From contig NZ_QUOK01000013.1 in the NCBI RefSeq assembly GCF_003390325.1, positions 62,001 to 126,000 on the forward strand: 64,000 bases of DNA, read 5' to 3'. The notes under the pieces are model-generated. The model saw nothing but the letters and a program-made list of their open reading frames with translations. It made no database searches and was not told the DNA's origin. Below are positions 7,542-62,574 of the stretch, piece by piece; position 1 is the stretch's first letter; each line of letters starts with the position of its first letter. Source of the stretch: Rhodohalobacter sp. SW132. GTDB taxonomy: Bacteria; Bacteroidota; Rhodothermia; Balneolales; Balneolaceae. The position numbers and the translations under genes are program-made.

Positions 7542-8008
7542 AGCAGATGATTTACTTTGAAAATAACTTGCAGAGACTTAGAAAAGGTGACCGCCAGCAA
7601 GAGTTTGGAGAATAACCTATTCTCATAGAATGCAATGGAATACCAGCATCAAGGACTAGTGTAGTTTTGGCTGCACTTTTTAAACCTTGTTCCTTTTTTT
7701 TATGTCTCACCCTATATAGCGTATGATTTTTATTACTATCGTCATAAATGCCAAAAAGTTAACTCAGTCTTTATCTAAATTTACTGTTGTTTTAGATTGA
7801 TGGGGCTAATACCGTGCCAATGGTGAGTTATTCACAGTCATCGGATGAGTCATACATGAATCATAAGGTCATCCGGTGGAATTCGATTTTTCGAAAAACT
7901 CATCCGATGACATAGCACTACAATCTTGATACAAAAGGAATCCGCATGGAATTATAGCGAGGAGAGAAGTAAATGCAATCTTTCAGAAAATAAACCAAAC
8001 TACTCAAG
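7542..8008. other. 467-bp intergenic region upstream of the T9SS protein gene
   Basis: This contains the 75-bp inverted-repeat element at 7837-7911 and otherwise AT-rich DNA. It should include the promoter of the minus-strand T9SS gene; none was recognised with confidence. Confidence 0.5.
7837..7911. repeat. GTCATCGGATGAG inverted-repeat element, copy 1 (75 bp)
   Basis: The element is bounded by a perfect 13-bp inverted repeat, GTCATCGGATGAG at 7837-7849 and CTCATCCGATGAC at 7899-7911. It is the same length as copy 2 (29286-29360); read in reverse complement, copy 2 also matches much of the interior (TCAT..ATGAATCATA near the left arm, TCGATTTTT near the right). The left flank (AATGGTGAGTTATTCA) also resembles the left flank of copy 4. 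No coding capacity. Confidence 0.85.
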
Positions 8009-29285: not shown

Positions 29286-29360
29286 GTCATCGGATGAGTT
29301 TACCAAAAAATCGAGGCATGCTTAATCAATGTATGATTCATTCATGACTCATCCGATGAC
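29286..29360. repeat. GTCATCGGATGAG inverted-repeat element, copy 2 (75 bp, inverted relative to copy 1)
   Basis: GTCATCGGATGAG at 29286-29298 and CTCATCCGATGAC at 29348-29360 are perfect 13-bp inverted repeats. The reverse complement aligns end to end with copy 1 without gaps, sharing TCAT..ATGAATCATA on one side and TCGATTTTT on the other. Confidence 0.85.
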
Positions 29361-29428
29361 TTGAAACTGATTATTTACCATTACTTAGTATCGTGTCATT
29401 GATGTAGGAACGGGTATATTTGGTGCAA

Positions 29429-29553
29429 ATCTTCACCGGATGAATTCGCTTCATCCGGTGAATTGTCCGACTTTTACATTATCCATCGCAAAAGCTGAAA
29501 GGGTAACATGTAGCCCTATCCACTCATCCGCTGACGTGAAGTCAGCGGATGAG
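29429..29553. repeat. composite palindromic repeat, copy 3, sharing a 41-bp identical core with copy 4
   Basis: Bases 29429-29469 are the exact reverse complement of 54382-54422. That core contains the nested palindrome TTCACCGGATGAA / TTCATCCGGTGAA. Continuing to 29541, the sequence still aligns with copy 4 (GTGGATA, GATAATGTAA segments). At 29523-29553 a 13-bp hairpin CTCATCCGCTGAC/GTCAGCGGATGAG with a five-base loop carries a variant of the terminal repeat. Confidence 0.85.
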
Positions 29554-29615
29554 GCTCTTTCCTTAACCCGACATATCATCATTTCATCGATAACAAGACA
29601 GTGTCTGATATCAGT

Positions 29616-54314: not shown

Positions 54315-54436
54315 GTCATCGGATTTGTGGATAAAGCAAAAGGTCATCTTGTATTGGTATTTACTGGAATAATGTAATAAACGGACAATTCACCGGATGA
54401 AGCGAATTCATCCGGTGAAGATCCTCATCCGATGAC
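54315..54436. repeat. GTCATCGGAT...ATGAC inverted-repeat element, copy 4 (122 bp)
   Basis: The left end GTCATCGGAT (54315-54324) is the inverted copy of the right end within CTCATCCGATGAC (54424-54436). Inside, the 41 bases 54382-54422 are identical to the reverse complement of 29429-29469 and hold the nested TTCACCGGATGAA / TTCATCCGGTGAA palindrome. The left flank resembles that of copy 1. Confidence 0.85.
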
Positions 54437-62413: not shown

Positions 62414-62574
62414 AAAAAGTGGCAGATACTGTCCAAAAGAGCGTCATCCCGTACTTGATACGGGATCTACTATCCCTAATACAAACAGGAGATACCGGAT
62501 CAAAGTCCGGTATGACAGTACTGATGATAATATTCCTTGTTTTACGCTCTTTTGGACAGTATCAGCCACTTTTT
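62414..62574. repeat. 161-bp MITE-like element with 31-bp terminal inverted repeats
   Basis: 62414-62444 and the reverse complement of 62544-62574 match at 30 of 31 positions. Inside are two hairpins, CGTCATCCCGTA..TACGGGAT at the left and GATACCGGATC..GTCCGGTATGAC at the right, of a kind widespread in bacterial intergenic repeats. No protein is encoded. It lies right after the DUF2207 gene. Confidence 0.85.

Follow-up and report, generated by a model that had tools for sequence, protein, structure and literature searches.

A 75-bp palindrome of Rhodohalobacter sp. SW132 as a likely REP-like element carried inside MITEs

Correia/NEMIS, RUP and Nezha are examples of bacterial MITEs. These names were taken in part from PMC3733652, which also describes the TIRtrons/TIRYTs, where a RAYT-like gene lies between inverted repeats unrelated to GTAG REPs and the inverted repeats also occur as dispersed families, dimers and clusters. 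The TnpAREP subclass 2.6 (RAYT group 5) is found mostly in Bacteroidetes. Its gene is flanked by 'atypical secondary structures' with copies elsewhere in the genome, and its protein carries the motifs NH[LIV]H, WQ, YIH[QN]NP and SS, with a HuH-Y distance of about 82 (PMC6006769). The mechanisms disseminating REP-like palindromes are still poorly understood (PMC8266576).

Here we compared with these systems a palindrome family present in a 64-kb stretch of the Rhodohalobacter sp. SW132 genome (the window, meaning the whole stretch analysed). As in subclass 2.6, palindromes without GT[AG]G flank a RAYT gene (in a relative, see below) and have copies elsewhere; unlike there, they are 75-80 bp long with long loops, are identical across distant lineages and lie inside MITEs. 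The family shares with the TIRtrons/TIRYTs both the gene placed between such repeats and the dispersed, dimeric and clustered copies. Theirs are described around the gene, whereas here outer MITE repeats and target duplications enclose the palindrome, a comparison made by description and not by sequence. Like REPINs/BIMEs, the palindromes are intergenic, occur in pairs and clusters, are linked to a RAYT and would be mobilised in trans, but the core is 75 bp against the 20-40 bp of REPs, no 5' tetranucleotide guide was seen and the interior is long and asymmetric. Many dispersed intergenic copies are also typical of canonical REPs (GTAG/CGTC). Unlike their 20-40-bp stem-loop, the core here measures 75-80 bp (or 55-63 bp) with a loop of 31-49 nt; an unpaired GTAG/GTGG or CGTC tag was absent from the element ends, where the copies of this genome keep only an adjacent A (-1). 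With bacterial MITEs the units share a length of 100-250 bp, lack of coding capacity, outer inverted repeats, short target duplications and intergenic position, and differ in that one inner palindrome is common to two MITE families whose ends are unrelated, and also occurs outside them, next to a RAYT gene.

The original prediction had placed a 75-bp element with perfect 13-bp inverted repeats at 7837-7911, and its sequence and coordinates were exact. The second copy, predicted with the same ends and length, lies at 29286-29360. With the flanking A/T the arms of both copies reach 14-15 bp. The features of the window are as follows.

7807..7939, + strand: probable full unit of copy 1; boundaries uncertain, drawn from the sequence and the consensus extent
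7837..7911, + strand: core of copy 1, 75-bp palindrome with arms GTCATCGGATGAG / CTCATCCGATGAC
29286..29360, - strand: core of copy 2, 75 bp, canonical orientation on the - strand
29361..29385, - strand: canonical left flank of copy 2, adjoining the next unit; from sequence and consensus
29386..29605, + strand: second-subfamily unit; same outer repeat as family 1 (at 29386, TAGTATCGTGTCAT), intact relatives L272 and L275
54315..54436, + strand: apparently chimeric copy, family-1 arms around a second-subfamily hairpin (54389-54419)

The outer repeats of copy 1 have decayed (TAATACCGTGCCAA at 7807-7820 and TTGATACAAAAGGA at 7926-7939; 8/12 positions each). Two longer relatives had also been proposed, at 29429-29553 and 54315-54436, and both exist. 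The first, however, represents another subfamily of the outer element: it is part of a unit of ~211 bp that carries the family-1 outer repeats and two short hairpins (29432-29462 and 29523-29553). The right end of this unit is decayed and approximate. A hairpin of this subfamily is also present as dispersed copies. The second, whose left arm has 2 mismatches to family 1, looks like a chimera of family 1 and the second subfamily. At 62414-62574 the window also holds a 161-bp stretch with 31-bp inverted repeats at its ends (97% complementary), which is probably another MITE-like element.

A genome-wide REP/MITE-like family had been expected, and it was found. In the 5.08-Mb genome the exact two-armed pattern gave 13 matches and its reversed control gave 0, so chance does not account for it. 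A search with the 75-nt consensus yielded ~32 copies at E<1e-6, and a covariance model ~40 separate places at E<1e-3; the family comprises about 35-40 copies in this Balneolaceae genome. These copies form one family since their interior is shared and asymmetric; flanks are shared as well, and the length is near-fixed over tens of copies. The statement that all copies are intergenic nearly holds: 30 of the 31 distinct genome copies tested had no ORF overlap, and one overlapped an ORF at its 3' end. Convergent gene pairs were favoured (12/29 copies versus 32/187, p=0.005, in a simple ORF-based annotation). Both strands fold far better than shuffled sequences, consistent with the stable stems predicted. 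The Rfam search returned no match except a tRNA. A two-site dimer-binding repeat is ruled against by the variable arm spacing (55-63 and 75-80 bp).

Outside this genome, exact arms were found only in Balneolaceae and in Salinivirgaceae/Bacteroidales MAGs. The Balneolaceae carriers were GSL.Bin13 (which matches the same-genus genome G003), bin.57, GEM2.Bin41, GEM2.Bin42 and Rhodohalobacter sulfatireducens. Carrier genomes held 1 to 17 exact copies, and since the scan demanded exact arms, this range of lineages is a lower bound. Between lineages the arms are identical and the interiors wholly different, with element lengths of 55-63 or 75-80 bp. A phage or plasmid origin was rejected, because the exact pattern was absent from viral contigs and a plasmid search with copy 1 gave no match.

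The 13-bp repeats had been taken as the bounds of the element. Our results did not agree with this: the palindrome is itself enclosed by outer repeats and target duplications, and its ends are therefore not those of the mobile unit. In the SW132 genome homology reaches ~140 bp, of which the 75-bp palindrome is only the core, and the outer inverted repeats TAGTGTNNTGTCAA are decayed. GEM2.Bin42 has this outer repeat in intact form, and other relatives also carry it. A query derived from GEM2.Bin42 was enriched around the SW132 copies at about -34 (p=2e-7) and at +15 to +31 (p=3e-5), and pairwise homology of these copies stops at the same positions. CTAG stands at both ends of the Balneolaceae outer-repeat elements and is ambiguous as a target duplication.

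In Salinivirgaceae the core lies inside ~129-bp elements with a different outer repeat, CCTNANATCCGCA. Nine copies at unrelated sites share homology for 14 bp to the left and about 36 bp to the right of the palindrome, where it stops abruptly; CCTAATATCCGCA and TGCGGATTTRWGG form the unit ends. In 7/9 copies with sharp outer ends, target duplications of 5-6 bp were found, with boundaries judged by eye (TATTA, GAATA, TTTCTA, GAGAC, ATCTT with one end base changed, TATTA and TTCCA), and exact ones at several further members of this outer family. Target-site duplications thus appeared in the Salinivirgaceae relatives only, and no clear ones in the SW132 copies. Other members of the Salinivirgaceae outer family enclose different inner palindromes, e.g. 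AGTCACGGTGTGAGT and AGTCGCTGTGCGACT. The units are non-coding, shorter than 300 bp and bounded by terminal inverted repeats in Salinivirgaceae and several Balneolaceae (decayed in SW132), as is characteristic of MITEs. In Salinivirgaceae the palindrome has spread as the interior of MITEs, and this is probable for SW132 too. No autonomous element bounded by the outer repeats was seen in the 1.6 Mb of sequence examined. The intergenic DNA could not be aligned for empty sites because neighbour genes are 27-61% identical in the relatives searched and mostly missing from the closest genomes. Palindromes of the GATCTGACAGCG type were also observed in two settings, next to a RAYT in the form of a 76-bp element and within a MITE of the TAGTGT type (L117:1291-1366 and L286), a possible second case of such nesting.

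In the Balneolaceae MAG bin.57, a RAYT gene (L034:747-1358) is flanked by a pair of element copies on each side, and the spacer within the pair is the same upstream and downstream; its 3.9-Mb genome holds 12 exact copies in all, including these four. The protein matches the NCBIfam RAYT profile with a score below the curated cut-off, and PDB 4er8 by sequence profile (E 1e-4); 4er8 was also the best hit in the fold comparison (E 1e-6). It resembles TnpAREP subclass 2.6 in sequence, with YIHQNP, SS and a HuH-Y distance of 81, close to 82, and departs from it in having NHFH instead of NH[LIV]H and FQ without the W (PMC6006769). A related arm core was present in the flanks of 11 of about 19 loci of the bin.57 clade versus one of about 50 more distant RAYT loci; the motif was picked after viewing the clade, so that only this contrast counts. 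The RAYT tree clusters the arm-core label and leaves a single origin unsettled. Exactly these palindromes stand beside a RAYT in one genome only, bin.57, and there the copies, like those of R. sulfatireducens, have essentially neither outer repeat. The RAYT link comes from this one genome and the clade-wide core similarity, which suggest that the RAYT may recognise the palindrome.

The window contains no cognate RAYT gene, as had been predicted, and the best match to the bin.57 RAYT in the SW132 genome reached only 36% identity; mobility, if any, would therefore be in trans. The RAYTs that this genome does have are of other types, and several are accompanied by palindromes of their own; none is a cognate for the 75-bp element. 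Palindromes of the copy-1 family do not flank these loci. The Y1/RAYT genes of the genome were rejected as drivers, since those found have other palindromes or none.

We favour, as the fairly likely explanation, that a RAYT lineage resembling subclass 2.6 has the 75-bp palindrome as its REP-like element, and that this palindrome lies inside a ~140-bp MITE and is orphaned here. The 14-15-bp arms would pair in single-stranded DNA, and a cognate RAYT (HUH/Y1 enzyme) would recognise the hairpin, which it could cleave, rejoin or move. The palindrome sits between the outer inverted repeats (TAGTGTNNTGTCAA, or CCTNANATCCGCA in Salinivirgaceae). A second transposase, probably of the DDE type as judged from the target duplications, would act on these repeats and scatter the composite units into intergenic, preferentially convergent sites, so that MITEs would have given the palindrome most of its spread. 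The SW132 copies are probably decaying remnants because no cognate of either enzyme was found in this genome, and they are presumably inactive at present. Besides the bin.57 locus, the outer repeats and the Salinivirgaceae target duplications, this reading is favoured by the identity of the arms between lineages, their lower divergence and compensated changes (both detailed below) and the excess of convergent gene pairs. Against it speak the single genome with these palindromes beside a RAYT and the missing outer repeats there, the deviating motifs of that RAYT, the lack of a GTAG-type guide and of an autonomous partner in the sequence examined, and, in the SW132 copies, the lack of clear target duplications and of compensation.

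More tentatively, and with some doubt, the repeat may be served by two enzymes: two MITE families of the DDE type, unrelated to each other, would each have independently captured one RAYT-recognised palindrome that is identical in Balneolaceae and Salinivirgaceae. If true, other transposons would amplify and spread the sequences targeted by a REP transposase of the HUH type. Two aspects are new here: a single palindrome is nested in two outer families, and it is conserved base for base between distant groups; otherwise the repeat is of a known kind. Palindromes inside MITEs with target duplications offer a concrete and testable spreading route for REP-like palindromes.

An alternative is that these are ordinary MITEs only, in which the inner palindrome, either a long imperfect hairpin or a subterminal repeat for binding, belongs to DDE-type elements and its proximity to the bin.57 RAYT is incidental. 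The outer repeats and target duplications do show that a larger unit transposed, and the SW132 genome is without a cognate RAYT. Nevertheless we consider this unlikely, as the inner palindrome is enclosed by either of two unrelated outer repeats, and bin.57 and R. sulfatireducens have it with neither of them; paired copies with a conserved spacer stand on both sides of the bin.57 RAYT gene, and other RAYTs of the clade also adjoin related cores.

Another explanation is a resident regulatory element, a hairpin that acts at the ends of genes, by protecting mRNA 3' ends, by terminating transcription or as a protein-binding site TCATCSGATGA, with mobility secondary. The SW132 copies diverge from the consensus by 6.5% in the arms versus 19.9% in the interiors, about three times more, and most copies in this sample were found without requiring perfect arms. 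This difference, the enrichment between convergent genes and the stable folding of both strands would fit such a role. However, constraint on source copies would equally give identical arms, and arm mutations in resident copies are uncompensated: no compensated arm changes occurred within the SW132 genome. RNAalifold on these copies showed no covariation, and covariation is therefore claimed only between subfamilies and lineages. There, compensated changes were found at arm position 2 (G-C to T-A or A-T), position 8 (G-C to T-A) and position 11 (T-A to C-G, in G031 and G039), with further ones at positions 6, 7 and 10 in Salinivirgaceae variants; rows with a span of 55-69 that paired arms of neighbouring elements were left out of this tally. 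The 45-49-nt loop without a T-run is also unlike an intrinsic terminator, and Rfam offered nothing for such an element. A resident regulatory element is quite improbable. Unrelated hairpins alike by chance, for which the intergenic position and nothing else speaks, have a negligible probability, being already refuted by the shared asymmetric interiors, together with the common flanks and near-fixed length of tens of copies and the empty reversed control.

Under the favoured reading of a RAYT-type palindrome carried by MITEs, pairing seems, from these sequence patterns, to be selected in the spreading lineages and not necessarily in each resident copy, since the arm changes are compensated between subfamilies and lineages and uncompensated within the SW132 genome. 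The natural arm variants with compensated changes provide material for mapping recognition by a subclass-2.6-like RAYT.

Palindromes built in the same way, 55-93 bp long and of different sequence, accompany other RAYTs in the genomes studied (L232, L136, L145, L117 and L107). L232 (SW132, C3:169000-174000) is a REPtron of another type, in which a RAYT near 2153-2698 has tandem 55-56-bp palindromes with arms AGAAATACCATGTCT, five upstream and four downstream, at a period of about 125 bp. At L204:8211-8607 (SW132, C2:328211-328607), a tandem array of four palindromes of 78-80 bp lies between ordinary genes, with no transposase; the arms TTCATCGGATGAG / CTCATCCGATGAA are compensated and the period is about 105 bp. 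In L092 (SW132, C3:41160-44501), long direct repeats AATCCCGGAGGGATTTAACGTGAATAGCC flank an IS200-like Y1 transposase gene and apparently represent a further repeat family associated with a transposase; a copy of the 75-bp family 670 bp from this gene was rejected as a link, being a single decayed copy near a gene with its own repeats. In R. sulfatireducens (L258:1464-3060), a short palindromic element occurs as two identical copies, also nearly identical in their flanks, which form direct repeats about 1.5 kb apart and enclose a 164-aa ORF.
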